This document shows, piece after piece, positions 1,631 through 62,422 of a stretch of DNA of 64,000 nt. The translations under genes and the position numbers were made by a program. Positions within the stretch are counted from its first letter, which is position 1. Every line of letters begins with the position of its first letter. The notes below the pieces were generated by a model, which saw only the letters and a program-made list of their open reading frames with translations, did not search any database and was not told the DNA's origin. Source of the DNA: Rhynchopus sp. YZ270_cl-10 (taxonomy: Eukaryota; Euglenozoa; Diplonemea; Diplonemida; Diplonemidae); NCBI GenBank assembly GCA_964035575.1, contig OZ037871.1, forward strand, positions 124,001-188,000. The letters are read 5' to 3'.

Positions 1631-1661
1631 GATGAACCTGAGCCTCACGGACTTAGTCACC
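1631..1661 (+). repeat. CTCTCGT hairpin element (family A), variant
   Basis: This is a family A member beginning AAGATGAA. Its CTGAG/CTTAG inner stem contains one G-T pair, and it ends TTAGTCACC. The loop is CCTCACGGA rather than CTCTCGT. Confidence 0.55.
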
Positions 1662-3416
1662 GATTCAAACGAAGGAGAGGAACGCTTCAATGATTCTATT
1701 TTGTGAAAAATTTGGGTTAAATGTAGGGGGGCCTATGCACCGGCTATTCCTTCATTTGGCTCGGAAAATTTGGCGCCTTTCGGCAAAAAAACCCAAAAAT
1801 AGATGAAACTACCCTATATACCTCACCAAAAATCACTTTCCGCCGGGTTTCAGGCACTTTTGAGCCTTTTTTCTTCAATTTTTTTTTTGAAAAAAATCTG
1901 CAAAAAAACTGAAAATGGCAAAGGCAAATCCAGTGTAAAATGACAATTTTCAACAAAATGTGCGTTTAAATGTGCCAACGGGCAGCATTTTGTTTAAATT
2001 TTTGCTCATTTGAGTCCACAGAGTCCCAAAAAATGCATTGCCGGGGTCGTAGGTCAAAAAAGACTTAGTAATTTCAATTTAAAATCAAAAGGAGCCAAAA
2101 TTACCGGTATAGGCTCCCCTATTAAATGTTTGGATTTTTTTTTGTTTGATAAATTGGTGTTCCAGAGGGCCTATATTGACATGTCCTTGACAGGTGTTTC
2201 AGGAACACCATAAATTGATAAATTGACGACGTGTAGGCACCTCGCTTTGTTTCGTGTGATCTCCACGCACAGTTTTTTTTCTTTTGCTATTTCGACAAAT
2301 CTCCCCAGTACTTGGAGGACTAGGGGTTTGTACTCAAATATTGGTCAAAGCCTTTTTGATTAAAAAAAATTGGCTCATGTTGCGGGGGTTTTTTTTGTGG
2401 GAATCGACAATCACTCTCTTGTCAAAAAAAAAGGAAAAATAGAAAAATGGGGATGGAAAAAAAAAAAATCATGTTCAGTTCTATGCTGACACCTTTGGAA
2501 AGAAAGAATAAGATAATGAGTGCTTGGACACTGCGTTGTACATTGTATTTGACATTAGACCTACACTGGACCACGGAGGAGGGGATTTTTTTTTTTGTTT
2601 TTTTGTCGTTGTTGTTTGGTCCGACACGAACGGCAAGAAACAAAGACAACAACACCCCAACCAACGCTCCTTTGTTTTGGAAACAATAAAAATAAAACAG
2701 AAAATTTTGAAAGATGAATGTGTCTAGAGCACACACCACACACACACACCTTTGTAAAAACCAAACTCATGTGTCCTCGCAAAACACATAACAAAGAGAA
2801 TAGTTTATAATGACCCTAAGCCTCTCATGCATAAGCCACCTTGAAAAAAAAGTCAACAACAACAACAAAACCCCCTCTCCCCTCCCCTCCCCTATGTTGC
2901 GTTGTGCGTTGACCAAAAATACTACAGAAATGCTTTTGTTTGCCTCACCATCACCTTTGATCACCTTGTACGCACCTGCCATGAGGTGGGGTGGTGGTTT
3001 CAGGACTAAAAACAAACCTCCGAGAGAAGAAGCAAAGAACTGCATTGAAAAGTTGTCTCAAAACGTTGGTAAGCTCACTACGAACACATGCCACACCAAA
3101 ACATTTAAATTCAACTAAATCATGACAGCTCTTCTGGTCTCGACTCATGAAAGACTCTAAAAAATAAGATGACATTTGTGACCACCTCATGTTCAAAAAC
3201 ATAACATATTAACAAGGACAGTGTTGTGATGCCTTGTGTTTCGGGGAGAAGGAGAAGAGGGCAAATTAACGAGAGAAAATGTAGTAGTTGAAATGTGCAC
3301 AAAAACGCACGGTCAAAAATAAAAATAAAAAGTCGGTAAAAAAGAGCAGTTGCCTGCTAGGGGGGAAGAAAAATTGCGATAATATATTGGATTGAACGCC
3401 CTGATGTCTTTGACCC

Positions 3417-3654
3417 TTACCCGCCAGAAAAAAAAACATTGCAGGTATTGGCCGCTAATCCTTTTGACCTACTATTTAAAAAACCTCGTGCAGCCAGGGC
3501 CCGAAGACCCTCAGTCATCAGAGAGCCGTCGTCGTTACCTTTGTTGGAAGGTGTGGAGACTTCTCTAATGAGAGGGTCGTGTTTGCCCTTGGGTTTCACT
3601 TTGGGTTTGAGACGAAGGTATTTGTCTCGTGTCCACGTGATCCCAGAGGGTTAA
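3417..3654 (-). pseudogene. Possible coding remnant, unrecognised
   Basis: Read on the minus strand, about 75 codons stay open with a more balanced composition than the surrounding A/T runs (…WTRDKYLRLKPKVKPKGKHD… then …MTEGLRALAARGFLNSR…). There is no ATG near its 5' end and no recognisable domain, so it is not a complete gene. It could be an isolated exon, a decayed duplicate of a gene outside the window, or chance. The minus orientation matches the host genes, which slightly favours a host remnant. Confidence 0.25.
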
Positions 3655-4018
3655 AAAACAGTAGCTGGATATAAACTAATTTTCATGTACTTTCCGAGAA
3701 AGCACGGACTTTGCGAGAGGGGTTTGTAAAATGAAACAAAAGAAAACAAAACAAAGTCAAACAACGAAAAATTGAACAGATAAAAGAAAAAAAAAGCGAG
3801 AAAGAATGATGCCGGGGGGGAAACAGTTCTAATTTTTCGTTCATTTTTTAAAAAAACTAATATCCTTTGTTGAGGTTGTTGAGGGGGAAGGGGAGGGAAC
3901 AGCGAGTAAAAACGACGAAAAACGATAACACAATACTTGGGTGATGCTACCCACCCCTTTTTTTTTGCATTTTTTCCCGCCGTTTACTCTTTTTTTTTTC
4001 CCCCCTCATCATCTCTCC

Positions 4019-4589: not shown

Positions 4590-4990
4590 TTGGCAAAAAA
4601 AAAAAAGGCTCGGATCTGGAGGGTTGATTTTGTTCGGTTGGGTTTAAGTTTAACTGTTATTTGATAAATTTTGTTGGAGTAGTATACGTTGCCTCGGTTG
4701 TGTTGCCACAGTTGTGCAAATCTCCACTTTCCATGTATTTTTTTCCCTTTGCAAGAATCAACAACCGGGGTGGGGAAAAGGCGAGCTGGATTGAGGGGGA
4801 AGAGGGGAGGCGATTTTCACCCAAATTTGGGGTTTTTTTTTTCAAAATACGATATAATCGTTTCAGCGCAGGACAACATCATGTATGGGAAGGGGATGAT
4901 CACATGAATCAGGTGTCCAAAAAAAAGTGAAGTTGATAGTGCAAACGCCTCTGGGACGCAGGGCACTGACAAAAAAAAAAAGATACATCA

Positions 4991-5096: not shown

Positions 5097-5433
5097 CACT
5101 CTATCAGTTTATTTTTGTGTCGACAAATCACTTTGCTCCAAAAAAAAAAATGGAACAAAAAGTTCTGTACTAAAAGCTAGTTAGAAGCTCAGAAGATGAA
5201 CCTAAGCCTCTCCTGGACAACCGTAGAAAAATAATCAGCCAAACTCTTTTGGCTGCAAAAAAAAAAGAAGAGAATTTGAAAACACTACTCACACAAAAAC
5301 CTATCACAAAAAGCAAAAAAACGGGGGGGAAAAACTGTTTCAGGTGGACTCGACGTGCCTGTATATATTTGACACACCCTTTTTTTCCCCTTACTCACCA
5401 TATTTTTTTTTGGAACATTTTTTTTTTGAACAT

Positions 5434-8196: not shown

Positions 8197-8206
8197 ATTA
8201 AAAAAA

Positions 8207-8232: not shown

Positions 8233-8240
8233 CAGATGAA

Positions 8241-8262
8241 CCTAAGCTCCTCTGAGCTTAGG
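8241..8262 (+). repeat. CTCTCGT-family hairpin with extended stem
   Basis: CCTAAGCTC (8241-8249) pairs perfectly with GAGCTTAGG (8254-8262) around a CTCT loop. It is preceded by the family's GATGAA. Compared with the standard CTAAGC/GCTTAG stem, the added bases change on both arms so that pairing is kept. It lies about 45 bases upstream of the receptor A start codon. Confidence 0.75.
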
Positions 8263-8835: not shown

Positions 8836-9680
8836 CAACCAACGAAAAAACCTTTTTCCCCTTTTACTTACTTGTCAGAGTTACTATTGAGGAAGGGGGT
8901 TAAAGGGAAAGATGCGAACACAAAAAAGATACTAAAATATATGAAAGAGCGGAGTGGCGGTGGTGATGGGGCAAAAGAGCATCGAATATCTTCTGTTGTG
9001 TTGCCGATGCTGTTGCTGGGGCATGCTTTGCAGTCTTCTCCGTCGGCGCACTGCACCACACTTCAGCAGACTGTGCATCAGTGTTGTGTGTTGCACCTAC
9101 AAAGAGGACCGCAATAGAGATACAAGATAGTCACATACAGTAGTGCCATTGGAAAGGTGGGGATGTACCACTGCTGCACACGGGGTGTTTGATTGTTTGT
9201 TTGCTTGCTTTGTTACTTGGTCCATGCCCTTCCGGCAAGTGTTGTGTTCTGTGGGCTAGCCAGGTCTTGCGACCCGATTAGTGACTTTATTACTCAGCAT
9301 CAGGGTAGAGTACCGTAGGTGCTGTGTTGTTTGTGCTAGTTTTTTTTTTGATTTTGTTTTTGTGACGTATTATTAAAAGGCATCCCCTAGAACCAACATA
9401 AGAGTAACCCTTCGTCCGTGCACCCGCAAAACAGATGCATCTTGAACGGTTCCTCTCTACTGTCTCATGCCTCCTCTGGTGTCTCGGGATATGCGAAAAT
9501 ACATCCCACACAGAGAAAGGCTGGGACAAAAGGGAATAGAAACGGTGCAGAAAAAGTTGGTAATATGAGTCACCCAGCCTTTTCGTGTTTCATCACCTTC
9601 GTTGAAGGTGGAGTGTTTTGTACACAGCTGCACTCTTCCAACAATCTGTCAAAGGGGGTGGGGAAGGAAACGAAATTTGT

Positions 9681-9711
9681 AAGATGCATGTGCCTCTCGT
9701 GCACACATATC
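9681..9711 (+). repeat. Family B hairpin
   Basis: The TGTGC stem pairs with GCACA around a CTCTCGT loop. The flanks AAGATGCA and CATATC extend the pairing imperfectly. Confidence 0.7.
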
Positions 9712-9921: not shown

Positions 9922-10276
9922 TACTTTATTTTTTCCCTTTTCAATTTTTACAAGGGGGAGGTACATTTTTTTTGGAAATGGATCACACCAAAAAGCCTTG
10001 CCCAGCAAAGGGCAGAGAGATGGGCATGAACAGAGCGGAGAAAACAAATGATTAGTTTTGGTGTTATCGTTTAAGCAGAAACGTGGCGCGTGGACCTAGA
10101 TGAAGGCCTTCGAGCCACTCGAGCTATATTTAGGGGAAACAAAAAAAGACTGTTGTAAGATGAATGCCTCTTGCGAGAACAATGTTTATCGAGAGAAGAA
10201 GAAGAAATCTCAAAAAATAATGTTTTCTGGCAAAGAGGTGAGAGGGAAGGGGGTAAGGGTGGGAGATCATAAAAAA

Positions 10277-10350
10277 GTGAAGTTGATAGTACAAACGACT
10301 CTCTAGGGAAGGCACTGACACTCTGTGTATTGTCGAACCCCCGGAGTGTT
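10277..10350 (+). repeat. Bipartite hairpin element (family C), long copy
   Basis: The 5' block GTGAAGTTGATAGTACAAAC is followed by AGGCACTGACACTC and the second hairpin ending GAACCCCCGGAGTG. In this second module CACTC pairs with GAGTG. The full two-hairpin layout recurs at 21349-21420 and 24311-24382. Confidence 0.65.
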
Positions 10351-11478: not shown

Positions 11479-12314
11479 TATAGATACAAAAAAAAATATA
11501 CAAACCAAAACAAAAACAATGAGGTTGAGAAAGTTCAAGACTGTAAAAAGGCAAAATATACAAAAAAGTGTTTCAAGCGCAATGGTGCCATATTGTCACC
11601 AGAGAAGAAAAATATAACTTGAAAGATGAGCCCCACTCAATGATGCACGCGGCAGAAACGGGGCCATCTCACCCCATATTTTTTTTTGAGGACTAATTTC
11701 AGCGACTCTTGTTGCCCAAAAGAATAGGATGGTCGTAAGCCCCTAAAAAGGAGGTCACAACCCTTTTCCGTATTATAAATTAGCTTTGGTGTGGTTGAGG
11801 GGGTCTAGTTTTTGGAAAGTCTTGACAAAGTCTTGACAAAGCACAATAATGCGACCTTCGACCACACCAAGTTTTTGGACAAAAAAAGAACTATAAAAGT
11901 GCTGACAGAACGCTCCTGATTTGACCGGGAAACCCCCTGAAAACCACCAAGAAAAACACATTGGCACTGTCTCAGAACCTTAGGGGGTTTGTTGTCAAAA
12001 CGTGGGTGATGTGAAACGCTTTTTTTTTGTTTTGTCTTGTGGCAGTGATGATATTCACCCTACAGACTGAAAAAAAGCAATTTTTTCTTCTGTTTAAATT
12101 TTTCGTTCGGCATCTAAAGTGAAGCAATATATGGGTGGGAGACATGAAGCAGAGAGCTTCTTTCGCCCGCTCGCAAAGGTGGAAGGACGTGAATTTAAGT
12201 GGTGGTTAAGTTTTGAGAGAAGAAACGAAAAAGAGAAAAAAACGTTTGTAATATTGCACCTAAGCCTCCAGTGCTTAGGTATCCAAAGCAAAAGAAGACG
12301 TTAAAGAAAGAAAA

Positions 12315-12415
12315 GTTTACAAGATGATCCTAAGCCTCTCGTGCTTAGTCACCTTATAAAAAAGAAAGAGAAAAGCTGGTAAGACGACAGACACCTCGCG
12401 GTGTTTAGTAACCTT
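12315..12415 (+). repeat. Two adjacent family A hairpins
   Basis: The first (12315-12358) is near the family consensus: AAGATGAT, stem CTAAGC, loop CTCTCGT, stem GCTTAG, then TCACCTTATAAA. The second (12381-12415) has a different stem, GACACC pairing with GGTGTT around TCGC, with the same flanking style (AAGACGA…TAGTAACC). The stem sequence has changed on both sides together. A third copy with a CCTAAGC/GCTTAGG stem and 7-base loop lies at 12259-12279. All three are within 400 bases downstream of the receptor B stop codon. Confidence 0.75.
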
Positions 12416-15300: not shown

Positions 15301-15483
15301 TGTTGATGGAACCTTTGGGTGGAGTAGGGGATTCGGGGAGTAGGGAGGAGGGGAAATGAGAGCTCAGCACGAAAGGGTGAAGACTGAGTCTGTTCCACGA
15401 ATGATATTGGCATTCTTTTCGCTGACAAAAATAGACCACAATAATTGACATATGGAAATAGCCAAAAAGTTGCGGGAAGCAAA

Positions 15484-15532
15484 AGTTGAAAGTGCAAACA
15501 CCTCACCGGAATACCGGTGGACGCAGGCACCG
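15484..15532 (+). repeat. Bipartite element (family C) with its own middle hairpin
   Basis: AGTTGAAAGTGCAAACACC is followed by an ACCGG-AATA-CCGGT hairpin, then GGACGCAGGCACC. In other copies the middle hairpin has other bases, so the variable part is the paired part. It lies about 70 bases downstream of the SPRY-gene stop codon and upstream of receptor B. Confidence 0.65.
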
Positions 15533-15600
15533 AAAACTAAGACAAAGTTAGATGAAACTAAGCCAGAAACACATCTGTATCTTGATAAAGCCTTCTGAGT

Positions 15601-20900: not shown

Positions 20901-21725
20901 TGTGGGGGTGGTGGTGGGAGGGGGGCGATCCCCCCTGCCCTGACCTTCGGTAGGCCTGTCCTGTGGTGTGTTGTGGTGGTTTTTTGATGCCTAGTGAGGG
21001 TAATTCTTGCGCAGAATATGGGTAGTGGAGTGTGAAGAGAGGACATGAAGAGGCATTCAGGTACGGAAGGGATTTGAGCAGTTTACGTAAAAACGAAAGA
21101 CAAAAGACAAAAAAAGAGTGGTCGCGGAAGAAGAGATGCGCCGTGACCCGGCTGTGATCCCGAATTGGTCTCTTTTGATGAGTTTGAGTGTATAGTAGTA
21201 GGTGGTGGGAAGCGACGTGATTTTCCACGTCTGAGGACCTGACCTCTATTGGTAACGGAGGGTGTGAAGAGAGAAAAACAGGTAACATCTTGCCGTTCCA
21301 TATGTATGGTTTTCTTGTTGGTGTTTTTGTTTGGAAAAGGAAAGAAAAAGTGAATTGTTAGTGTAAACGTTGCGACGCAGGCACTTGACACTCCGTGGGT
21401 TATCGAACCCCCCGGAGTGTTGCACTCAGGAGTTGCTGACAGGGAAACCGTAAAGAAAGCACCACTTCCCCATCCTGAATAAAAAAAATAGGGGGTCAAG
21501 TACTTCAAGTATCAACTATTGGGTTTTTTGGGGGATCGAGTACTTGATATACGTCAAGGACTTTGGACAGCCATGCCAAAAGGTTTTTTTTTTGAACTTT
21601 TTTTTGAAAACTTGGCTGTCTTACTGCAGCCACCCCAGAGTGTGCTCCACTATTTTTTTTTCGTTTTTTTGTTTCGTTCTAATTTTCTTCCCTGATATAT
21701 TCCCCCCTTTTTTGGCTAGATTTTT
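20901..21725. other. Spacer between the two beta-propeller copies
   Basis: No gene seen. It contains the upstream part of duplication unit 1, a two-hairpin bipartite element (21349-21420), an A-box-like element (21604-21655) and the downstream part of unit 2. Confidence 0.65.
21349..21420 (+). repeat. Bipartite hairpin element (family C), full copy
   Basis: GTGAATTGTTAGTGTAAACG is followed by GACGCAGGCACTTGACACT and a strong hairpin: ACTCCG(T)GGGTT, loop ATCG, AACCC(CC)CGGAGT. An almost identical copy lies at 24311-24382 as part of the gene duplication. Confidence 0.75.
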
Positions 21726-24050: not shown

Positions 24051-24784
24051 TGTGGGGGTGGTGGTGGGAGGGGGGCGATCCCCCCCTGCCCTGACCTTCA
24101 GTAGGCCTGTCTTGTCTTGTGTTGTGGGTGGTGGTTTTGACGCCTAGTGAGGGTAGGTGGTGGGAAGCGGCGTAATTTTTCCACATCTGAGGATCTAACC
24201 TCAGGGTATGCGAAGAGAGAAAAAATATGTTGACATCTTGCCGTTCCATATGTATCGTTTTCTTGTTGTTTTTGTTTTTGTTTTTGTTTGCTTGGAAAAG
24301 CAAAGAAAAAGTGAAATTGACAGTGCAAACATTGCGACGCAGGCACTCGACACTCCGTGGGTTATCGAACCCCCCGGAGTGTTGCACTCAGGAGTTGCTG
24401 ACAGGGAAACTGTAAAGCAAGCACAATCACTTCCCCATCCTGATTGGGAAGGGATAATTGGAAGACCCCGTTCCCCCTTCCCCCCTTTTCCCAACCTGAC
24501 CCTGTGGTAACACATGGACCGCTGGCGCCTCTATGGACAGGGGGAGGTTAGAGACGGAATGAAACGAACACAAAAAGAGTTTCAGAAGTTTACAAGATGA
24601 ACCTATCACATCCCTCGTGGTTCGCCACCTTTGGTCGACGAATGGTGGCTAAAGAAAGATCGCAAAAAACAGGCAAAGGAACCGTATGCACTTCAGCCAA
24701 ATGCTCTTTTTTTTATGATAGGAGCCTACTCAATGTCACCCCCTAGCAGGGGCACGGTCGTATAAGTCTGGCATCGTCCCTTTA
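24051..24784. other. Spacer between propeller copy 2 and the lipid-anchored WD gene
   Basis: No gene seen. It contains the upstream part of duplication unit 2 with a full bipartite element (24311-24382) and a diverged family A hairpin (about 24590-24635). Confidence 0.65.
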
Positions 24785-33176: not shown

Positions 33177-33207
33177 GATGAGCATAAGCCTCTCGTGCTT
33201 AGTCACC
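33177..33207 (+). repeat. Family A hairpin
   Basis: TAAGC pairs with GCTTA around the consensus CTCTCGT loop, flanked by GATGAGC and AGTCACC. Confidence 0.7.
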
Positions 33208-37135: not shown

Positions 37136-38521
37136 GGCGGGAAGAAGGGAGGAGAACTGAAGGAGATAAAGAAATTTTTGAGTATTTTTTTTTTTTTTGC
37201 AATAAATAGAATGGCAGCAAAGAAGAGGTATTTGGTTTCCATCAGAATACGTCAAAAAAAAAGGAGGGGGGAAGGGGGGGCACAAAAAAAGAACGAAGCA
37301 GAATCCATAAAAGGTTTTGTTTAAGTTTGAAGGCAACGTAAGGCAACTGAGAGCAAGGGGGGGGAGTACGTTGAGACGTAAGCAGCGAAGGAAGGAGAAA
37401 AGAGGTAGAGAGAGAGGGAACAAAAAAAGTAGTGGAGCACACTCTAGGGTGGCTACACTAATACAACCAAGTTTTCAAAAAAAAAAAAAGGTAAGATTCT
37501 TGTAAGATGAGGCTTCTCAGTGCGCACATCTTTTTTTTTCTTTTGAATATGTGTTGGAATAGTGTAGTTGCCACCTGTGCTCCACTGTCCTTTTTATACG
37601 AACATAGCAGACGCGGGTGTGGTAAACACGTTGGGTGTTGACATGTGGTTGTGTCTTTGGTTTACCCCTCCCGCGAACCAAAAAGCTTTGCTGTGGGTGT
37701 CCGTCGCATAGAAGAATTTTTGAAGCGAAAGACAAAAGCGCTCTCGTGACAGTGTACCTTATTATCACACAAAGGTTTGCAAGATGAACCAGATGTCACC
37801 TTTTTGAAAAAAAAATTTTTTTTGCAGTCCCAAAAAAAGGGGGGCAAAGTAAAGTTTAGTACAACGACAGCAGGCACACTGCACACATTTTAATATCCTG
37901 TTCGATGCCTGCGACGCATGCGGACAGCCATTCTCTGTGGGGGTTTTTTAGGAAAAAAGGGTTCTTTTTGTTTACCTTACGATCTTGATGAGGTGCAGAC
38001 GGCAGAAATATGTATCAAAGTTTATTTTGTTTTCTTGTGTTTTGGCTGGGGTTTTGTTTTCTGTGCAGCAATTTATTTGTTCCGCATTTTTTTCGTTTTC
38101 CGCCCCAACGAAGAAAACTGTGCCTTTTGTGCCACACCCAACAACATAGTGTGCCTAATGCACACCTTCTGAACAGTATTTCACACTGCAACCAAAGATG
38201 CACATGGAACATGTTGACATTTTAAAAAAGAAAATAGGGGATTATCCGATAGCCATCTCCTGAAGGAGGCACACATGCTACTCGTCTTTTTTTGACCAGC
38301 GTTTAAAACATAAGGGGGAAAATGAGGGGAACATAAGAAAATAAAAGTCGACTTGAAATACAAAAGCCCTCTCGTGACAGCTGCACCGTGGGTGGACCCC
38401 CAACCATGCACAATCCATTTCGAGGTTGGCATCTGACAAGTCTGTACACATTCATTTGTCTGTATTTTTTGACACTAATATTTGAAGTGCGTACACGAAT
38501 AAAAAGGGTGAAAAAAAGAGT

Positions 38522-38555
38522 GAGATGACTTCCACCCCTCGCTGTGAGTCATCTC
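38522..38555 (+). repeat. Family A-like hairpin with a 9-bp outer stem
   Basis: GAGATGACT (38522-38530) pairs exactly with AGTCATCTC (38547-38555). The loop region holds CCCCTCGCTG, close to the family loop. The outer-stem bases differ from other copies on both arms, so pairing is preserved. Confidence 0.7.
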
Positions 38556-38781: not shown

Positions 38782-39778
38782 AATGGACGCGGGGCACTGC
38801 CTATTTTTGAACTGCAAAATCAGTTGGATTCCAAACGAACAAAGTATTCGCTAGCACCTGAAGAAAGACACAGTGTTTCAAACGAAAGCCTTCATTTTTT
38901 GGACAACTCAGCAGAAAAAAAAATTCATTCCAATATTAGTCTGAGCCTCTCGTATTGGTGGCGCCTAATAGACTAAATGGTGATTGATGCAGGCACCTCC
39001 GACTGACCCATGCTAGCCATCTGGATGCAAGCACACAACACTAAAAGAAGGCAAATGAACCGGACCGTTACACAAAACGCTAATTTAGAGTATTCCTTTC
39101 GATTCGTTGAGTGCAGTTAGAGTTTCGAAAACTCTTTAATAATACTCTAATAATCAGACCCTAAGTAGACCGACAACTAGATTACACTGTTATAAAAGTT
39201 GACTTGAAATACAAAGCCCTCTCGTGACAGTGTAACTGTTTTGTTTCAAAAGGTGAATGTTCCACTGCATACACATCTAACAATAGTGAGATGACCTAAG
39301 TCTTGCTTTTGGTACCTTTTCAAAACAAAAAAAGAGAAGTGAACTGCGTCACAGTGAACGCGTTCATTGTAACGCGGTTCCTCTCAAAAAATAAAATAAA
39401 ACTTTGAGAACTCAACATATGAAAAAAAATTGGCAAAAAAAAATTGAAAGAAAAACAAATTGAAGTTATTAATGCAGGCTCCGACTCATGTACGATGCTA
39501 GCCTCGGATGAAAAATCACAAAAATACCCTGCAGCCAACAACAGAATATAAAAAAAAAATACTCCAAAACTAACCAAATCGGGGGGAGGGGGAGTGGCCC
39601 GATGCATGCATCGGTAAGGTTGAGGGGGTGTAGGTATAAGCGCACGACGGTGAAGCACAAATGACTAGACTTATTGGTTTTTACTTGGTGACGGTGAAAC
39701 CACAAAGCGAAGTTCAGCACCTGGGACACAGGCACTAACACTCCGTAGGTTTACCGGAACGTTTTACACTTGCAAAGC

Positions 39779-39850: not shown

Positions 39851-40476
39851 CCATGCGCAAAATCACCGTACTTCACCGCCATGAGTGGAAAGAGGGCAAC
39901 TGTTCTTTTTACTAGATATTCATTTTCGATGTTCGGTGTCCCCTCTACCACTATCATCACCTATAACACACACCCTGCTCCTTTATGCTTGTGTCCCAAG
40001 AGAGAACGATTTGCCACAGGGGACAGGAAAGGAGGGTGAAAGAAGTATACAGTACTCATATTGGTGCTCGCAACAAAAAGCACGCAAAAAACAAAACAAA
40101 AAATAAATAAACAAAACAAAGAAACTGCAATGCATGCGTCTCTCGTGCACAAAGGAATAGTCTTCGCAAAAAAAAATAAAATAAAGTATTGTGAGCAATG
40201 TGTTGTATAAGAGTAACGACGTCCCCCACCCTACGGAAACGACTCTGAGATGCACAACGCCTCACAAAAGACCGCAACCCGAAGGTGTTGATACTGAAAT
40301 GAGGGGACATGAGATATCCGAGGATTGCCGTTGCCGAGAGAGGATGGGCTGCAAATGTATGAAAACAAATATTAAAAAAAAAAAAAATTGCAAGGAATGT
40401 GCCAGGTCAGGTCCAAGTCATCCACTTTGGTACCAGGGGGTATCACTGTGTCTTATGTGAAGAAAAGGAAACTTGG

Positions 40477-40509
40477 AAGATGAATGTGCCTCTCGTGCAC
40501 ACACATCTT
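40477..40509 (+). repeat. Family B hairpin, consensus copy
   Basis: AAGATG pairs with CATCTT and TGTGC with GCACA around the CTCTCGT loop. This is the clearest example of the two-part stem. Confidence 0.75.
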
Positions 40510-40930: not shown

Positions 40931-42170
40931 GTTTTGAATGATGCCAAAGAGTTGAGGTGCTAAAAGACAAAGAATAAAACGAAGGGGACAGTGCAAACGC
41001 CTCACCGTTCATCGGCGGACGCAGGGCACCTGGGGGGGAAAATACCTAACCTGGCACCGAAGCGATTTGATAAACATTTCCGTTTTGCGAGAACACAGCA
41101 TCGCCACCCCAAAGATTCCAAAAACAGCTACGGTATACTAGAAAACAATGTTGGACCGGAAAAAGTCCCCTCAAAAACCCCCCAAAAAAGGTCCCAAACT
41201 TTCGGTCTAACATTTTTTGATAGCTACGTAAACACTGTTAATTGGTGTGATCTGAGCAGTTTTTACAAAGTCTTTACGCGACTTCGACCATATGCTATGT
41301 TAAGGGAAATACAGTGCATCCAAGCTTGTCTTGAGTTAAGCTACCAATCAAAGCTACAGTCTTCCACCCGGTTAGAATCGACAAAAAAAAATCAAGGTTT
41401 GAGATGAACCTAAGCGTCTGCGTGCGTACCTGAGCAGACGACATCGGCAAAAAGTTAAACAAAGGGGGGACGAACCCCGCTCCACTGTGGAGTGAGAGAC
41501 GGCAACAAGGTGCTCTGCGCTTGGTCTGTGCCGGGTCCAAACAAAACAAAACAAAGCGTGATGCCCTGACACAGATCTCAACGTAAAAAAAAAGTACAAC
41601 GACAAACAAATGCCTGTTGACAAAAAAAAAATCTTTCTGATCCTTTCTATGCAAGAAGAGGTCTTGGGTTCGCAATAGAGTGAACCCAAACTTTTTTAAA
41701 AGTGAATTGTTTGTTTCTGATAGTGGCAAAAACCAAAAAACCAAAAAAAAAAAAACAAAACTAATTTCACTGTATCAAATAATTTTCAAAAAAAGGGAAA
41801 AGACGCGGCTTTTGTACACGGTACGGTACGAACCTCAAAAAGGATATTGGGAAGAAACACGGGGGGTCGAAATGACTATGTGACATAATCTGTTTAATTG
41901 CCACCTCCAACAATATCACAAATAATGGGGGGGGAGGTTACGCTCAGTTTTGTACACTACCGTTACCGTGATCTTTTTTTTCCCTTCTTTTTTTTTGCTG
42001 TATCGATCGCCCACTGAAGTGGGATACTAAAATATTGCCCGAAGGCGTTTTGACTGTGCCAGAAAAGAACCAACAAAAAAAATAAAAAAAATAAAAAAAT
42101 GCTCAACAAAAGGAAGAAAACCTGAAAAGATAAGTGTGCTTCGTACACAAATCTAACACGATAAAAAAAA

Positions 42171-44283: not shown

Positions 44284-46339
44284 CACACGGCGTGCCCTCC
44301 TGGCTCACCCTCCTCTCTGGAGTCGCAGCTTATCGTCTGGTGCAGAGCATTGTGTGTTTATTGTTGGATTGCGTTCTGTTAGGGGTTTTAATGAAAAAGG
44401 TGGGGGGGAGAGAAAAAGAGGTTTAAATGTGTCAATTTGCCCTTTTTTTTTAAAAAAATATATGAGGTCAACAACGGTAGTGGGGGTGAAAATCCAAAAT
44501 TCCGGGAAAAATTGGTTTTTCTGGTTTTCTCTCCTGGGTGGCGAAAACCGGTGTTTTTAACGCACCCTAATACCCCGGAGTCAACTGTCAACCATCCAAA
44601 AAGCTTGCACAGTGAAGTAGTCAGCAAAAAATGATTATGACAACCCAAGGGTTGTCATTCACAACCCCAAAAAAATGACTGTCAGGCAATCTCGTATGCA
44701 ATAAGGTTGTAAATGTCATTTGAGTTGTCATTTTTTTTGCAGACCACCGCACCGTGCGGAACTAGGCTGAGAGGGTGGGGGCAAAACACAAAAAATCTTA
44801 AATTTTAAAAAGACGCAATATGCCTTGCGTGCATTCACATCTTCTGTACCTTAAAAAGGGGGGTTTGGACAGGGGTTTTAAAAAATGCAAAAAAATGCAA
44901 AGCATAAGAAGAAGAGCAAAAAAAACAACAACAACAAAAACACAAAAGGTTCTGCTCAATGTCGAGAGAATCAAGGTAGAAGGTAGAAAAAAAAAAGGGA
45001 GTTGTATCGTGACTCGATATATGTTGTCATGGGTGTGGTAAAACAGCACAGACATGGCGCTAGGCTGGTGAGGGTAAGGACAAGGGGGTATTCCTTTGTG
45101 TACCGTATGCCTGTGGCCTGTAGTAGAGGAAGAGGGGACCCTCCAAAAGGGGGAGGGTGAGGGGCGTCACGCCGCATGCAAGAGGTGTTTAAGTATAGTC
45201 TTAGCCCCGGTCCGTATTGCTATTGGAACGAACGTTATTGATAGATGGATGGGGTTCACCCTTTTGCGTCGGTATGTGCCACGTCTCGCTAGAAAAAGGA
45301 AAAAAGGAAAAAGGAGGAATCTTGTTACAGTCTAAGTTCTAATGTATCGTGTCACAAGTTATGGTTTCGAGTGGGGGCAAAATTTCTAATTGATTGAACC
45401 AAAACTACAACCATAAACTATGACGCTATGAAGCATTTAGACTGTACATTGTGTGCTTAGTCACATTAAAAAAAATGCCACACCCACATGTAGAGAACGG
45501 TACTGTACGGTAACCACGTGGGTACTAACCAGGGTAACATGCGAAAGTGACATGATTTTTTTGCATTTCAACGTATTGCAAAAACCACGCAATTTAACAC
45601 GTTACCCGGGCACATGGTCACCGTGTTGAGGGACCCTTTTATTTGGGGGAAAGGGAGGGGAGGATCGATCGTGCGCAATGAAGACCCACAACGCGACCTA
45701 TATCCTTTAATATTAGTGTATGGATGACTAATCGCCATTTATTTTTATTTCCCTTTTGCGAAAGAAAAATAAGTACCAAGGGTTCTGTATTAAAAAACAA
45801 CGGCACCTTTTTTTAGGCAGACTGGTTACTTTTTGTAAAAGTTTACTTTTAACCGTCTGATTTGCGTCATCTTTATTCTCTTTTTTGCTGTGAATATAGA
45901 GCAAATGAAATAATGTTCTTTCCAAGATGAACCTAAGCCTCTTTGTGCTTAGCCACCTTTAAAAAAAACGTTGCGCAACGATGCTTTCAAGCCTCCGCTC
46001 CGTCACAATTTGTACTTTCAATCCACAAGAAAAAAAAATAATTGCCAAAAGTCACAATAACTTGACGCCACTGAGAGCCAAAAGGGGGAAGGGGGTAATC
46101 CAAAGGGGAGACACGACGGACAGCATTACTAGCAGTCCGCCGCGAGGGGTCGATTAATTGGTATTGAATTGCGTATGATGGCACTGCCTCATGGCGGTGT
46201 TTTTTGGGTGCACATAAGGAAACAGCACGCCCATTTTTTTGTCATATACACGGTGTAGTCTGAGCACACGAACGTGCCCTGTGGGTGTACGCCCCAGCGC
46301 ACCTATGATACGAACAATGTTTATTGTGCCGTACAGCCT

Positions 46340-46391: not shown

Positions 46392-46991
46392 GTGAGGTCC
46401 GGTCTGTGCCCATCGTGGCCCGAAGGTTATTGTATCAGTATTTAAAGTTATCCCACGAAGGCTATTGTATTAAAAAGATAAGAAAGGTTATAATAATGGC
46501 CCCGAGCCTCTTCATGCTTAGCCTAGATATGAACTCATTTCGGTCGAAGAAAGTAGCCCAAAAAAAGGATTCGGGTTACAAAAATGACCCTCCCCCTCCC
46601 AAAAAAAAGAGAAGTTGAAAGGGTAAACATCTTACCGTCGGATGCAGGCACAAACCCCCTCAAAAAATGAACCCACCCCCAAAAAAAAAGAGAAAATGAT
46701 TGCAGATGAACTTAAGCCTCTCATGATTCATCACCTTAAAAAATAGAAACTTGTACTCTGAATGTGCCTCTCGCACATATCAAAAAAAGGGGGGTTTGAA
46801 AATGTTTTTTGTATGTTTTGAAAGTGCTTTGTGCTCTGTTTAATTTTGCTTGATAGTTTTGTAGACGTGGGGCAAAAAAAGAGGGGGGCACCAGGAGCTA
46901 CGCAGATGGCAACGCCTTAGGTCCCATCCCGGTAACATCCAAGGAACTCTGGTCTTTGTCTTCTGACAACAGTAGAAGGATGGAAAGGTGG

Positions 46992-47025: not shown

Positions 47026-47805
47026 AAGCATGATCCAAAAGGCGAGGGATGCTTGTCATGTGGTTTTTTTTTTTTTTTTTGATAAATTGTCGGAGCAGTG
47101 TTGTTGCCGGAGTTGTGGTTGGTGCACTCTCCACTTCCAATATTTTTTCCCCCATGTTTTTTGTGTTGTATTTATTCTGATAAATTGTTGGAATAGTGTA
47201 GTTGCATGTGAGCTCCCACTGTCAACTTTTTTGATAATCTGTTTGGTTTTGAAATTCCGCCTTTGCAGTCTTTTGCTTCAAATATTAAAGCTCCGGCACT
47301 ACATTTCCACAAAGTCGCCACACAGGGGGGGGAACCCCGGGGTAACTATGTAGTGCCTACCGTTCTTGCATCTTTTTTTTTAATTTTTTTTTTTTTGAAA
47401 AAAACTTGGTTGTATACTAGTGTCCAGACACCCGAAAAGACGGTCACTATATTACAGGGGGGCTTTTTTTTTTCACCCACCAAAAAATACCCCATAGACT
47501 CTTGGCCAACGGGTGGGAGGAAGTAAGGTGTATTTTTCATAAAATGTTGGGAAAAAAAATTGACTTGAAATACAAAAAGCCCTCTCTTGTGACAGTGTAC
47601 CGGAGTGGACCAACAAAAAATCAAAAACAAAAAAAAAAAACTTGTAAGATGAATGTGCCACATCTTCCAGAAAGAGAAGGTTATAAGATGACCCTGAGCC
47701 TCTCCTTTTTGGTCACCTTGATCACAAAAAAAAATGATGACGTGGACCCCAGGGGGAACAAGACATCGGGCAAACGGGGGAAAGCTGGTACGAAACGTGG
47801 AAGGA

Positions 47806-48640: not shown

Positions 48641-49089
48641 CTCCCCAGCTAACCTTTTCAAGGAACGTTTTTCCGTACCCGAAATCCATTTTTTCCCCAT
48701 TTTTTCCCATAATTAGCGCGACCACTGGTAGAAAAGAGAGGACATATTACATTACGACAGAACACGTTTATCAGTGCAAAGGTTCGTGAGATGAGGCTGC
48801 AAATGGCAAAATGGATGTATTTTTTTTTTTCCAAAGGTACTAATCTAAGATGAACCAAAATGACTCATCTCACACCTAATGTGATCAACACCTGCAGCTT
48901 CCATAATTTTTTACCAAACGTATGGTATAGGCTAAGCAGCTTTGGTGCCTACTTTTAGCCTAATGACAATGTATCAAAAAGAGAAGTTGAAAGTGCAAAC
49001 GCCTCACCGTCCAACCGGGTTCTCCACGGGGTTATCGAACCCCAGAGAGCACTTCATTGGTGTGCACACACGGCATCAAAAAAAGAAAA

Positions 49090-49220
49090 GTTTATAAAAT
49101 GACCCTAAGCCTCTCTAAAAAATATCCGTTGTCTCGCATCGTCTCCAAAGATCCGAAGTCGGGTTACCACATGAAGGCTATTTTCATTGGTGACTACAGG
49201 CTTAGGGTCACCTATAAACG
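49090..49220. repeat. Facing family A units enclosing 80 bases
   Basis: GTTTATAAAATGACCCTAAG (from 49090) is mirrored by CTTAGGGTCACCTATAAAC (49201-49219). This is the only clear minus-orientation family A copy in the window. It suggests that a single family A hairpin could be a collapsed form of a larger inverted-repeat element. Confidence 0.65.
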
Positions 49221-49467
49221 TTTCTCTTTCATCGGTGTTGTCAAAAACGTTGCACAACCAGCCACTTGAGCTTGTTTTTATAGAATCTTTGCAAGGCACA
49301 CGGAACAGACGTATGCTATGGTTAAGGGGGATGAGGTAGTGATTTGGGGAAAGTAAGAAGCTTACTGTATCAGAGGGGAGGGTGAAATGTGTTGAAAAAA
49401 TATATAGAGAAATGGGCAAAGATAAGGAACACTTGAAAAGATGAATGTGCCTCTCGTGCACACATCT

Positions 49468-49551: not shown

Positions 49552-49975
49552 TCATCTTTAAAAAGAAAAAATGAAAAAATTGGAAAGGATAAAAAAGCGT
49601 GAGCCGTGTCATACCTTAACCAAAAAAAAAAGTGGATTTTGATAAAACGTGTGTGTGGACCACCTCTGTAATGCAGGTTGCCAAAATAAGTCGCAATGCA
49701 TAAATCATAAGAGGAAAAAAGAAAAACGTTTTGTGTTTTTAATTTTTAATTGTTGCTCGCGCAACCTCTTTCTGGGTTGGGGAAGGTGGGTTGCAGCAAC
49801 TAAAAAGAGGGAAGGCAAAACATGATGAATGTGTCGCTGTGTCCACACACATATCAAAAGAGTGCGCAAAAACGACTCTGGGCCGCAGGCACTACCTTGG
49901 GTTTAAAATAAGTTGCTGCGTTTGAGGGTAGTATGAATAACACGAAGCATCTTGCAAAATATTGAAAGAAAAAGT

Positions 49976-50082
49976 TGAGTACAAAAGCCCTCTCGTGACA
50001 ATGTACGTTGGTACATGACCGGTGTACCGGGGGGTGTGGACCTCAACCATACAGTCCTACAATCCATTTTCAAGGTCTACAT
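49976..50082 (+). repeat. Three-hairpin element (family D), best full copy
   Basis: Blocks in order: CAAAAGCCCTCTCGTGACAA, TTGGTACATGACCGGTGTACC (a GGTACA/TGTACC stem with a seven-base loop), GGGGTGTGGACCTC, AACCATACAGTCCTACAATCC and AAGGTCTACATCTG. The 189-bp inverted-repeat element at 50083-50271 begins directly at its end. Confidence 0.75.
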
Positions 50083-50271
50083 CTGGATCGCTTTCAAAAC
50101 CACCACACTTTTTTTTTTCCAGGATTTTACCAAAAAAAATTAGCATAGAACCTCAGAATCACCCCAGAAACCATTTTCTGGCGGGTTTTGGGACCTATCC
50201 GCGCCAATTTTTGGTAAAATCCAAAAAATTCAGTGTGGAAAAAAGTGTGGGATTTTTTGAAAGCGACCCAG
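50083..50271. mobile_element. Inverted-repeat element, 189 bp
   Basis: CTGGATCGCTTTCAAAA at the left faces TTTTTTGAAAGCGACCCAG at the right. The pairing continues inward through CCACACTTTTTT and GGATTTTACCAAAAA blocks, giving arms of about 50 bp with a few mismatches. Non-coding interior. Confidence 0.7.
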
Positions 50272-50940
50272 ATAAAGAAGAAAACTGTAAGGATGTGCCT
50301 CGTGCACACATCGATACCACTATCGTCATCGCGCTTTGGAACACGCTGGGTGAAACTAATTTTCGTATACTTTCCGTTCAGAAAGCACACAAGGACGTTT
50401 AAAAACGATACTTTTTTTTTTGATAAAAATCTTGAAAAGAAAAGTGTTTCTCAAGGCACAGAGATATACGAAGAAAAGCCATTGCCACAACTAAAATGGG
50501 ACATATGCTATGGGATGTCGACCCCCCCCACACTAGAATTACAAGAAGGGGGGAAATCGATACCGAAAAAAAAAAAAAGAAAATGTTTTGGCACAAAAAA
50601 AGAAAGGTGTATCAGGTTATCAAGCGCCAAAAAAAGAAGAAAGGGAAGGCTCGTTTTCCCTTTTAATGTTACAAAGTAACAATAAACCATTTTTCCCGGT
50701 GACCCCCCCCTAAGAATACCCCTTGTCCTTTTTCGTCCTCTACGTCTTTTTCGTCTTTTTCGTCCTTTTTCGATCTGGGAAAAAGGACGAAAAAGGACGA
50801 AAAAGGACAATACAGGAAGTACAGTACAGAAAAATCACCAGGAAAAACACTGTTCACCCAAAAAAATCCCCCCCCCAAAAAAAAAATCTTGATTTCAAGT
50901 CCTCCAACAACAGAAAAACACAAGAAAAAAAAAACAAATC

Positions 50941-55042: not shown

Positions 55043-56462
55043 TCAAATTCCTCCAATCATAGGCTGTATACAGTACAAAAACATGAAAACACCAATAACA
55101 ACGCATTTTTTTTTCGTTTTTTCACGTTTTTCGTCGCAAAACCCCCCAAAAACCCCCGGAAACCCATTTTTGGGGTGGCACAGGGTGTGGGTCACCACTG
55201 AAATGGCCCACCGGCGAAAAAATAATAAAAATTACATAAAAACGTTAGCCAATGCGACCCTCTACCCCCCCCCCCCCCCCCCCTCCCCACCCCCTATGTT
55301 ACACGGAAAAACCGTTTTTCCGAATTTTCATTTATTGTAACAACAAGGCGCAGTGGACGTGCACATCCGAAAACACCCGCATTTGCATTTCCGGAATCCG
55401 TCCGCACTGTGGTGGGGTCAATCTGCCGAAATGGACAAGTTCTTGTTGTTGGAAAAAGCCACTTTTTCCCGCCATTGTTACAAAAAAAAAAGTTTTTTCA
55501 CCGGATTTCGGTCGGACCCCCTCCCCCCCCTTTATTGTTACTTTGTAACATTAAATGGAAAAACGAGCCTTCCCAAAGCAAAAAAGGAAGGATTTCTGTA
55601 AAAATTCAGCTCTTTTTTTCCCCGCCACATATCGGCACGACTGTCACCTAAAAAACGAAAGGGTCTGTCCGCAATACTCTGCCGAAGTGTGGTCTACATC
55701 AGGCTTTAAGATTGCACCAATTTTTTCCGGTTATCCTACCTTGATGACTTAACCCTGACGTCAGTGGGAAAAAAGAAGCAGAAGGTTGAAAACTGTGTAT
55801 CACTGGAAGTTTTTCAAAATATGTTACAAAAGATTAGTTAGTCAAAAAAAAGGTAGTCAATTGAACTTTGAAGATGGTTGTCTTGCTGAGAACACATCTT
55901 TTCCATCCTAATATAGAAGGAAGCAAGCTGAAAAGAAGTTAGGGTCGTGGGTCTTAAAGAAGCTACGACACACACACACGCTAACATTAGATATGGGTGA
56001 TGTTTCGCTCTTACGAAGAAGTACCCATATTTGCTTTCAAAAAATTTGACCAAAAAGAAAAGAAAAAAAAGTTTACTTGAAATACAAAGCCCTCTCGTGA
56101 CAGTGGGGAAAAAAAAAAGAGGGAGAAAAATAAAAAGACACTGTGTAATTAACAGATGTGATCTTGTCATACACCACCCTTATAAAACGACGTTAATACA
56201 GCTGACGTTTTTTTGTGTCGACAAATTTTTTTTTTTTGGCAAAACTTTTTTTTTTGTCACGACCAACACATCACCACTCCTTATTCACCCTCGGAAGCCT
56301 TCAAACCTTCAAACCTTCAAAGACCAAAACCTCCTATCACAAGAGAAAACTGCCTTTACCCCCAGCAAACCCCCGAGGTCACCAAGACATTTTGAAAGAA
56401 TTGAGATTGAACCTCACGCCCTCTTTGTGATTCGCCACACCTGTTCCCTTTACTCCCTTTTT

Positions 56463-59820: not shown

Positions 59821-60297
59821 ATGAGGAAAAAGAAGGCACTGGGTGACCTCCTGACGGGCCTAGAGGCTGTTCGTGCAGAAAGCTTACACGGGTACGAGGC
59901 AGGCAACAAGGTCAGGGACATGATGCGAGCGGAAGACTTGCCCGAGATAGTGCAGACTTTGCGCCGCCGGGTGGACGTGGATTTTGGGAAGGGGGGGTGG
60001 GGGGGAAAGGGGGACAGGAGGGACAGGAGGGGTGTGGGCGGAAAGGAAAGCTTCTCAGCGAATGTCAACGCTGTTGTAGAATTAGTGTGGATCACCATCA
60101 CGAAGACAAAAGTCCCCGCTCAGCGTCCAGTGCCCTGGAAAAATTCTATCATCATTGAAGCAGAAGGTCATGGTTCTTGTTGGCGGTCTCAGCAGTATTG
60201 GAACATTCGTATCAAACATAGCTGTTGCTGCGTCAAACTCGAAAGATGGTGTTTTGTGTTTTGTGTTGGTCATCATTGGAATGGGAACGAGGGTTAA
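59821..60297 (+). CDS. Possible small plus-strand gene, up to 158 residues
   Basis: The first 55 codons (MRKKKALGDLLTGLEAVRAE, then HGYEAGNKVRDMMRAEDLPE) are GC-rich and read like a real helical protein. The stop codon just before the ATG fixes the start. A CGCACAG acceptor-like site lies about 20 bases upstream. The following Gly/Arg-rich and Cys/Trp-rich codons look less convincing, and an intron donor near 59996 could end the true exon. If real, it is the only plus-strand host gene and would mark a divergent start region next to the metacaspase homologue. No family recognised. Confidence 0.35.
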   Translation: MRKKKALGDLLTGLEAVRAESLHGYEAGNKVRDMMRAEDLPEIVQTLRRRVDVDFGKGGWGGKGDRRDRRGVGGKESFSANVNAVVELVWITITKTKVPAQRPVPWKNSIIIEAEGHGSCWRSQQYWNIRIKHSCCCVKLERWCFVFCVGHHWNGNEG

Positions 60298-61217
60298 AAC
60301 TGGATGGGAACAGACACTGCTGGAATAGAGAAAGGTGTAGGGAGAGATGCAATGAGAATACGGGGAGGAGGGTGTACTTAGTTACTTATTAAAATGAGCG
60401 TGATGCGAGAAAAAGGAAAAAAGAAAGAAAATATCATGAGATGAACCAAAGCCCCACGTGCTCAGTCACCTAGAAAACTTGAAAGACGAACGTGCCGGTC
60501 AGACAAGGGTGCGGAGAGGAAAGAGCTGTGGAGGTCTCTGTCAAAAATGTGTGGGGGAAAAAAAAATTGCCTCACACCGGTTTTTTGGATCATACCGGCT
60601 TTTTTCCAAAATCTCAAACTGTCCCCACAACTAACGAGGGTGGGTGGGAGGCGAAGGAAAAGGGGAATGCGAAGGGTGGAGCAGGTGGTTGGGTGTGTGT
60701 CGTTTGCACTCTGAACAAGAAGGGCTTTTGCTGCACAGCATAGAAAACCCTTTCCTTGGCGGCAGCTGGGTTTGCAACGAAAAAAGAGCTGCAAAACGAA
60801 AAAGACGCCAAATTGGGTATGTCATGGTGTGTCAAGGATGAGATTGGCAGGGGTGATTTCAGAGGCAAAAGGGACACAGCAGAGGGGACGGATGAAGCCT
60901 CTTGTAAGCCACCTTCAAAAGAAAAGAGGGGAAAAAATGAAAAGAAAATATAAGAAAAAACCCTTCACCTGGTTTTCTTCTGCATGCTGCTTCCATTTGC
61001 AAAGTGTTCAGTCATTGACCGAAAACTAACGTTGAAGGCAGATGCGAATAAAGCTGGGCATGGTTGTGGTGGAATAACACTATTGAGCTGCAGTACAATA
61101 AGAAAAAAAAACAATCTTTTCTAAAAGTGGCAAAACACTCGAAAGGTTCAATGCCTCGTGGTGGGCATTGTTCACATCCTTCAGGATATTTTACACTAAA
61201 AATACAGAAAAGGTTAC

Positions 61218-61250
61218 AAGATGAACCTAAGCCTCGCGTACTTAGTCATC
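61218..61250 (+). repeat. Family A hairpin with perfect outer stem
   Basis: GATGA pairs exactly with TCATC, and CTAAG with CTTAG. In most copies the 3' outer arm is TCACC instead, so this copy shows the matching compensatory form. Confidence 0.7.
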
Positions 61251-62422
61251 AAAAAAGGGGGGCGTGGAGGTAACTTTAAAGATGCATGTACTTCTCATGC
61301 AGAACACACATCAAGAAAAAGCTGGTGGCATATAAAAAACAAGAAATAATCAAAAAAAAAAGTTGACCCTTTTTTTCATCGATCACAAGGGACCAAGAAT
61401 GGGGTGGGGGAAAACCAAGTAATTCGACCACAGCCGAAGAAGAAGAAATTATGAAGAAAAGATCCTCTCCAACAAAGTGAAGTTGATAGTGCAAACGTCT
61501 CCAACAACAGAGATAGGTTGGCAGGCTGGTGATCCTACACATCACAGACCACACCTGGGTCACCTTGAAAACAACTTTGGATGAAGATCTGCTGCACGGG
61601 AGATGAAAACCCTGCAGTTTTTGGGTATGCAGGCTGGAAGGGGGGAGAAGGGAAGGGAAGGGTGGGTGGGTAAGAGAAGGGTATGGGCCTTTGCCGCCTA
61701 CACCACTCCACACCCCTGCCGCGCATAGAAGCCCTTTCCGAGGCAGCTGTTGAATTGCAACAAAACTGTTGCAGCACACCTTTGGGCAATGTCATGGGTG
61801 GCAGGGCGGTTGTGTGTAGAGGGGCAGATAGGGGGCAACACGATAAAAAGGTTTGCAACGTGTAGAATACCTCGCACGCGCAAAATTTTCAAAAAAAAAA
61901 AATTGGTGGGGGAAAGAAAAAGAGAAAAAAAAGGGGGGAAAGGAAATTGGTGAAAATGAATGTTCCCACACCTCCCTAAGAAGTGTGGTGATTTGCGCAA
62001 AACAATCAACCACTTCCGCAAGAAGAAAAAAAATAAAACAATTTTGATATCGTGATAACAAGGTCTCACAGGAACAACAATCGCTAGCACAGAAAAGAAA
62101 GAAACTTTGAGGTGAAACGAAGCCTCAAGCATTGCTCTGAGGTCGCTCACAGAGATGCGTGGCTGTGTCCCTGGACCATATAAAATGTGAAAATATGCAA
62201 CAAAGCGGGGTTGAGGGAGACGGGTGGTGGGAGTGGATGTGTCTCTTTGTCTCTGAACAACACTTCTGTCAAGACAACGACAGACGAAGCCGTTCCAGCG
62301 CCTATGCCATAGGTAACAGAGTGTGGGGTGTCAAGTTCAGAGAGGCAAAGACACACGGGGAACCAGAAAAAACCTAAATAAAAAAAACTTGGTAGAACGA
62401 TGCTAAGAGCATCTTGTTCATA

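Follow-up and report, generated by a model that had tools for sequence, protein, structure and literature searches.

We analyzed a 64,000-nt stretch of the genome of the diplonemid Rhynchopus sp. YZ270_cl-10 (assembly GCA_964035575.1, contig OZ037871.1, here C39, positions 124,001 to 188,000; hereafter the window), in which short dispersed hairpins accompany a long one-directional gene array. Searches with nhmmer profiles, which use sequence only, called copies of six families in the window: A, B, Bx (a long form of B), C, D, and E (Table 1). Among these are 26 hairpins of the A/B kind (16 A, 8 B, and 2 Bx), which bears out an earlier note on this DNA that had counted more than two dozen. Ten of twelve coordinates from that note that we spot-checked fall on called copies; those at 12381 and 38522 are uncalled, though visibly hairpins of the same layout. 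The note had described the antisense strand: most large open reading frames (ORFs) run the opposite way, and in gene sense the loop is ACGAGAG. Read in that sense, family A is AAGGUGACUAAGC-ACGAGAG-GCUUAGGNUCAUCUU-AUAAAC followed by a U-rich tract, and family B is AAGAUGUGUGUGC-ACGAGAG-GCACAUUCAUCUU followed by ACAAGUU; the loop of both folds as a GAGA tetraloop with a bulged A and a C-G closing pair. Family C ends in a hairpin with the ACGAGAG loop and then a T tract, and family D has an AGUGC...GCACU hairpin, with a loop unlike that of A and B, followed by AUCAAC and a U-rich stretch.

A chance origin of the hairpins is ruled out by a genome-wide pattern count: AAGRTG-N(5-9)-ACGAGAG-N(5-11)-CATCTT has 2,354 matches in the 152-Mb genome (126 contigs) and none in the reversed control, a count that is not purely A/B, as 8 of 100 listed matches belong to another repeat (AAGGTG(G)CACAGG...). 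The exact 35-nt family A hairpin occurs 533 times and a 35-nt string made of the A loop plus tail 616 times, both with zero control matches; copy numbers beyond these searches are extrapolations. A 20-nt piece of A has no exact match in the viral contigs. For distances and strands we used 264 kb in three genomic blocks, including C39 (window at 124001-188000), C1:550-630k, and C1:2.70-2.78M. There the elements cluster, with 19 of 156 neighboring pairs at most 40 nt apart against about 4% expected from density, and it looks as if insertions favor the T tract of an older copy. Hairpins found by structure alone outside the known families (stem of at least 4) number 4 sense and 0 antisense, too few to use.

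Family A is the 3' untranslated region (UTR) of an autonomous long interspersed nuclear element (LINE) of the apurinic/apyrimidinic endonuclease (APE) type, which we call LINE-A. We class it so because its ORF2, which in the copy L064 spans 633-4997 (1,454 aa), carries an N-terminal AP-like endonuclease (Pfam Exo_endo_phos, residues 91-291, E 1.8e-13) and a reverse transcriptase (RVT_1, residues 674-883, E 2e-24) and ends in a TAA stop, after which come the hairpin and then a T-rich tail. At E <= 0.001, Pfam returns these two domains only, with no RNase H. The 3' UTR is about 60 nt long and consists of the TAA, some 10 nt, the hairpin of about 35 nt, AUAAAC, and the U-rich tail. The last 36 residues of ORF2 recur in at least 150 copies (150 scored of 305 candidates), some with a full 1,462-codon open frame and others with far shorter ones. 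The best named relatives of the reverse transcriptase are D. papillatum proteins (top identity 49%), alongside many matches without a species name.

Family D is likewise the 3' UTR of a second LINE, LINE-D (P0124), which has 1,476-codon open frames in many copies. In the blocks themselves, six LINE proteins used as tblastn queries found no LINE body. A tRNA-derived short interspersed nuclear element (SINE) origin of D was rejected when its box-B-like GGTTCGATAACC proved to be the end of the LINE-D ORF. Family B probably represents a sister LINE's tail: CGATAACGA at the stop is common to B and A, and the Bx copies C1a 6912 and C1b 18784 read ...R-stop ahead of the shared TAACG. Both B and C may be tails of further LINE families. 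Family E is an element of about 70 nt, sense in 20 of 21 block copies (4660-4728 in the window plus 19 more), whose 3' flank is A-rich, in contrast to those of the T-tailed families, and to which no ORF or LINE is tied. The first intron of a V-ATPase gene (L021 2660-2783) contains sequence that looks, by eye, like the 3' hairpin of family C.

The origin of the hairpins is itself ordinary. We consider it very probable that they are the 3'-terminal stem-loops of LINE (non-long-terminal-repeat) retrotransposons, left by severely 5'-truncated insertions. By analogy with stringent-type L2 LINEs, the ORF2 protein of each LINE would recognize the conserved stem-loop and bind it to initiate reverse transcription, and stems would differ between families yet stay paired because each ORF2 recognizes its own. 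Many insertions may end as reverse transcription halts once the hairpin has been copied. Among 20 exact A copies (the first 20 listed, with L054 a tandem duplicate of L053), the 3' end is common, and homology above the hairpin reaches about 120 nt in 3, about 20-40 nt in 3, and about 10 nt in 2, with little or none in 12; inspected by eye, the body of 120 nt reads as an open frame whose TAA lies about 10 nt before the hairpin.

Several observations weigh against truncation of LINEs as the whole account. LINE-A alignments in the blocks start at 5004-5011 in 16 of 21 cases, right at the hairpin foot (5008), a pile-up that could mean a tail-only element, although alignment starts in old copies mark only the limit of visible homology. 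Target-site duplications are usual for APE-type LINEs; here they are clear in 2 of 19 young copies, one of them amid tandem repeats, and inconsistent in the block families, where the value for D was reached in 7 of 200 and then in 379 of 2000 permutations. Families B and C have no ORF tied to either. One could picture the hairpin-only copies as a minimal non-autonomous element in its own right, a SINE pared down to a LINE tail and mobilized in trans by LINE proteins, as the pile-up, the dozen or so bare copies among the 20, and the 533 exact hairpins against at least 150 ORF ends would suggest. We think this unlikely: longer 5' extents of varied length exist, family D alignments have more staggered starts than those of LINE-A, a strong stop of the reverse transcriptase at the foot of the stem would look alike, and no separate source unit turned up, though no genome-wide search for one was made.

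The earlier note had read the hairpins as a fixed loop between covarying stems. The loop is variable, with GAGA in 37 of the 65 A/B/C copies that have the loop frame. Stems that change on both sides at once are found between families A and B, whose inner stems differ and still pair, and are rare within a family. Across 438 consensus stem cells in 52 A copies, 8 are compensated and 68 unpaired (22 A.C and 46 other mismatches), alongside 25 G.U cells and 6 cells in which a single change leaves Watson-Crick pairing intact. Under permutation, 2.6 +- 1.4 cells are compensated, with 8 or more in 1 of 1000 runs, and 52.8 are other mismatches where 46 were seen; in 73 near-consensus copies, 39 of 511 stem cells deviate and none is compensated. 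The excess of compensation within A is real yet small, and subfamilies could explain it. Because it is small, and absent from near-consensus copies, the stem-loop looks to be upheld in the parent LINEs and lost in their dead copies. The proposed selection on RNA or DNA structure is supported in part: the 3' UTR stem-loop of each LINE family seems to be kept as RNA structure, but changes in single copies mostly break pairing. A sense-specific preference for G.U pairs was rejected (25 G.U against 22 A.C, and family A's only fixed G.U pair is inherited), as was a GNRA-specific pattern of loop substitution, which showed no enrichment. A broader caution follows, in that apparently covarying stems across a repeat can stem from a few parent families and not from selection on each copy.

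The small excess of compensated cells also bears on a functional alternative, in which each copy is a working RNA element of polycistronic pre-mRNA (a trans-splicing branch point with polypyrimidine tract, or a 3'-end signal) under structural selection. The sense orientation of the copies would fit, as would the succession of hairpin, AYAAAC, and T tract seen in 52 A copies and the greater stability of the sense-strand fold among A copies (40 of 49) and D copies (24 of 33), though E copies show it in only 6 of 20. It is nonetheless highly improbable. Past the tract, YAG is not enriched (145 seen against about 165 expected from shuffles, 139 copies), and the first AG is YAG in 39 of 73 cases against 376 of 671 control tracts, statistics on which a trans-splice acceptor or branch-point element was rejected despite the layout. 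Unpaired stem cells outnumber compensated ones, and G.U is no commoner than A.C. Gene ends have no excess of A copies within 300 nt, and neither A, E, nor Bx is enriched near stop codons; the shares within 300 nt of a stop are 14%, 13%, and 12% for B, D, and C (14, 31, and 26 copies) against 7.5% expected, figures for which no significance was computed. The loop motif and its complement have no match within one mismatch in U2, U4, U5, or signal recognition particle (SRP) RNA. A cis-intron 5' splice site (AAG/GTGA) was discarded as well: the two inferred introns of the V-ATPase gene start GTATGT and GTATGC, unlike the hairpin.

The palindrome-rebuilding copying process raised in the earlier note is unneeded, as LINE retrotransposition, with its shared 3' end and 5' truncation, does the copying. 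Some extended perfect stems, such as that at 8234-8261, might recall a DNA-level process, whether hairpin transposition like that of miniature inverted-repeat or repetitive extragenic palindromic elements or stem rebuilding by template switching. Such a process is barely credible given the shared 3' end, the LINE ORF sequence upstream in longer copies, the strand lock described below, and the lack of rebuilt stems in near-consensus copies, and it is contradicted by the junction from LINE ORF to hairpin.

What sets these LINE tails apart is their orientation. After removal of overlaps, the blocks hold 162 copies, of which 159 are sense and 3 antisense (one A, one D, and one weak E). LINE-A copies agree in strand with the nearest kinase gene in 30 of 30 cases within 150 kb and 45 of 47 within 250 kb, the two misses fitting an intervening arm switch; for LINE-D the figures are 20 of 20 and 32 of 35 (100 of 150 rows used), and LINE-A agrees with LINE-D in 32 of 32 and 47 of 48. 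When the blocks are compared for self-similarity, 435 rows of 40 nt or longer are in the same orientation and 76 in the opposite one, tandem genes and short elements included. Copies of hAT (DUF659) elements behave otherwise, being sense in 8 of 36 cases where a kinase or LINE marker lies within 100 kb (two-sided p 0.0012) and in 4 of 22 when compared only with kinases, up to 250 kb away. A T-run target alone fails to explain the lock, because T-runs of at least 8 outside elements are only 1.2x as frequent as A-runs (298 against 248). Pyrimidine runs of at least 16 on the sense strand outnumber purine runs 2.6x (196 against 76), so that target asymmetry could account for part of the strand bias, although neither ratio comes near 159 to 3.

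That insertion itself is locked to transcription is likely, not proven. Setting of the lock at insertion is favored because dead tails of about 50 nt cannot stay sense through any need for expression. We would give even chances to the fuller statement that integration of at least two diplonemid LINE families always follows the direction of RNA polymerase II transcription, with an integration complex that reads the direction of the polycistronic transcript, for example by using the template strand, opened by the polymerase, for first-strand nicking and priming, or by way of nascent RNA or an R-loop. It is also possible, though we lean against it, that the strand lock arises not at insertion but by rapid loss of antisense insertions. 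The genome does show another orientation bias, with 28 of the 36 hAT ORFs antisense; these same ORFs show that the genome tolerates antisense DNA of kilobase length. In long spacers, remnants of about 50 nt hold to the ratio of 159 to 3, and exact copies are locked too: the A 35-mer agrees with the nearest kinase within 250 kb in 26 of 27 cases (among 100 of 616 places listed), with at most one switch on 17 of the 18 contigs listed.

If insertion is indeed locked, these LINEs would exemplify transcription-locked target-primed reverse transcription, and tens of thousands of tail hairpins of about 50 nt (extrapolated from the 264 kb) would form a strand-specific fossil record of array direction. 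The tails mark the direction of gene arrays along diplonemid chromosomes, and a lock present in the short remnants and longer copies but not in hAT makes testable the old question of whether replication, transcription, or selection sets the orientation of LINE insertions. What had been a puzzling repeat now reads as a system of LINEs in which at least two families are identified, intact ORFs exist, and copies consisting of the tail alone are very numerous.

Table 1. Hairpin-family copies in the window (positions in the window; strand relative to the sequence as given).
Feature	Position	Strand	Basis
Family A hairpin (LINE-A 3' UTR remnant)	1623..1661	-	nhmmer E 2e-10
Family A hairpin	2803..2845	-	nhmmer E 7e-08
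Family A, partial	5191..5215	-	nhmmer E 1e-05
Family A, stem extended into loop (8241 in the earlier note)	8234..8261	-	nhmmer E 9e-05
Family A hairpin	12244..12284	-	nhmmer E 7e-06
Family A hairpin, near consensus	12315..12356	-	nhmmer E 5e-14
Diverged hairpin, same layout (from the earlier note)	12381..12415	-	read by eye; no profile call
Family A hairpin	24588..24631	-	nhmmer E 3e-05
Family A hairpin	33175..33211	-	nhmmer E 8e-10
Diverged hairpin, same layout (from the earlier note)	38522..38555	-	read by eye; no profile call
Family A, partial	41398..41427	-	nhmmer E 1e-04
Family A hairpin	45920..45962	-	nhmmer E 4e-12
Family A hairpin	46704..46740	-	nhmmer E 3e-07
Family A hairpin	47679..47721	-	nhmmer E 3e-09
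Family A, partial	49090..49115	-	nhmmer E 5e-05
Family A-like, sole antisense A call	49187..49219	+	nhmmer E 2e-04
Family A hairpin	60436..60475	-	nhmmer E 4e-09
Family A hairpin	61212..61253	-	nhmmer E 1e-11
Family B hairpin	2705..2736	-	nhmmer E 5e-07
Family B hairpin	9674..9708	-	nhmmer E 1e-11
Family B, partial	40130..40152	-	nhmmer E 3e-04
Family B hairpin, near consensus	40470..40505	-	nhmmer E 4e-12
Family B hairpin	46748..46778	-	nhmmer E 3e-05
Family B, partial	47639..47659	-	nhmmer E 3e-04
Family B hairpin	49434..49465	-	nhmmer E 3e-10
Family B hairpin	61272..61309	-	nhmmer E 3e-06
Bx (family B with 5' extension)	34110..34187	-	nhmmer E 4e-16
Bx (family B with 5' extension)	50272..50356	-	nhmmer E 5e-15
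Family C (3' ACGAGAG-loop hairpin and T tract)	637..759	-	nhmmer E 3e-23
Family C	29886..29958	-	nhmmer E 7e-15
Family C	30067..30157	-	nhmmer E 2e-15
Family C	37715..37764	-	nhmmer E 9e-09
Family C	38341..38434	-	nhmmer E 2e-20
Family C	39193..39284	-	nhmmer E 9e-14
Family C	47554..47608	-	nhmmer E 1e-09
Family C	49969..50084	-	nhmmer E 1e-25
Family C	56065..56105	-	nhmmer E 1e-09
Family D, weak	542..584	-	nhmmer E 1e-02
Family D hairpin (LINE-D 3' UTR remnant)	1292..1344	-	nhmmer E 1e-13
Family D	1548..1604	-	nhmmer E 1e-11
Family D	4920..4969	-	nhmmer E 8e-13
Family D	10271..10318	-	nhmmer E 7e-08
Family D	15478..15533	-	nhmmer E 2e-12
Family D, LINE-D ORF end upstream	21344..21385	-	nhmmer E 6e-05 and LINE-D alignment
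Family D, LINE-D ORF end upstream	24305..24347	-	nhmmer E 1e-06 and LINE-D alignment
Family D	27811..27858	-	nhmmer E 2e-09
Family D	29158..29201	-	nhmmer E 2e-05
Family D	29267..29326	-	nhmmer E 5e-16
Family D, weak	29968..30002	-	nhmmer E 3e-03
Family D	34057..34108	-	nhmmer E 2e-08
Family D	40973..41029	-	nhmmer E 1e-13
Family D	46603..46651	-	nhmmer E 9e-10
Family D	48975..49018	-	nhmmer E 3e-12
Family D, partial	61471..61501	-	nhmmer E 6e-07
Family E (A-rich sequence downstream)	4660..4728	-	nhmmer E 4e-14
Family E-like, weak antisense call	9625..9654	+	nhmmer E 1e-02
Family E	37539..37593	-	nhmmer E 1e-09
Family E	47075..47135	-	nhmmer E 4e-11
Family E	47173..47220	-	nhmmer E 5e-09

The genes around these elements lie in long one-directional arrays, most large ORFs being on the minus strand in C39 and C1:550-630k and on the plus strand in C1:2.70-2.78M. 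On the 18 contigs listed, 35-mer strands run minus on the left and plus on the right in 14, all plus in C8 and C11, all minus in C12, and with two switches in C2, which suggests two divergent gene arrays per chromosome, a minus left arm and a plus right arm. The window also holds an hAT/DUF659 transposase ORF (50955-53327), antisense to the gene arrays and flanked by tandem arrays of GTCCTTTTTC-like and TGTTCGTCGA units (50725-50808, 53532-53600, and 53713-53825) that may be the ends of the hAT element. At 18506-24155, two tandem genes (776 and 774 aa, 95% DNA identity) lie beside a 787-aa ORF; the two of these three ORFs that were tested have no Pfam match. Elsewhere in the genome, the V-ATPase subunit is 54% identical to that of D. 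papillatum, a level that speaks against D. papillatum itself as the source, and 50-69% identical to EukProt transcripts. The diplonemid spliced-leader string has 762 matches within 3 mismatches against 8 in the reversed control, which together with the V-ATPase matches marks the genome as that of a diplonemid; a dinoflagellate was rejected, its spliced-leader pattern having no match within 2 mismatches. Genes for U2, U4, U5, and SRP RNA lie close together in dispersed units, several of them 28-31 kb apart, near spliced-leader RNA clusters (L029, L030, and L034 at C1:1.39-1.50M, and on other contigs, often near contig ends). Matches to 5.8S rRNA of falling score occur at no fewer than 38 listed places spread across many contigs, which points to rDNA pseudogenes or fragments in dispersed positions. 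A pectate-lyase search found no relatives among prokaryote contigs.

In kind, the hairpin-bearing elements resemble stringent-type LINEs, among which the eel element UnaL2 reportedly has its 3' stem-loop recognized by ORF2. The same is described for the 3' tail stem-loops of zebrafish ZfL2-1 and ZfL2-2 (PMC4176376). The earlier note knew of no described family that would fit; within the tests made (no Rfam match at gathering score within the window) this is true of the individual elements, but not of the kind, a LINE with a 3'-terminal stem-loop being well known. The likeness extends to an autonomous LINE, a 3' stem-loop, and a common loop with family-specific stems (A and B share the loop while their stems differ but pair; the D loop differs), and by analogy ORF2 may recognize the stem-loop here as well. 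The differences are the diplonemid host, the U-rich tail, the many copies that reach barely beyond the stem-loop, and the transcription-locked orientation. Trypanosomatids offer a second comparison. According to PMC12278014 and PMC2689281, the INGI-clade elements ingi and L1Tc combine an APE endonuclease with a reverse transcriptase in genomes with long one-directional arrays, and the degenerate SIDERs are short, dead, intergenic copies with an overall sense bias of about 4-fold. The elements described here share these broad features, but LINE-A ORF2 lacks a Pfam RNase H, the tail is T-rich and not poly(A), and the sense bias is about 50-fold, whereas SIDERs, though sense in 3' UTRs, are mostly antisense between poly(A) and splice sites. 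Among the papers, mostly open-access, that searches on orientation, stem-loops, and diplonemids turned up, the parts consulted describe no LINE with absolutely transcription-oriented insertion. Closest to home is D. papillatum, whose genes are reported to form one-directional clusters and in which about 2,500 gene models carry annotations as retroelement proteins, of several kinds; the portions available of that account (PMC10161547) mention neither a 3' stem-loop nor insertion orientation for its LINE-like ORFs, which are the closest named reverse transcriptase relatives of LINE-A.

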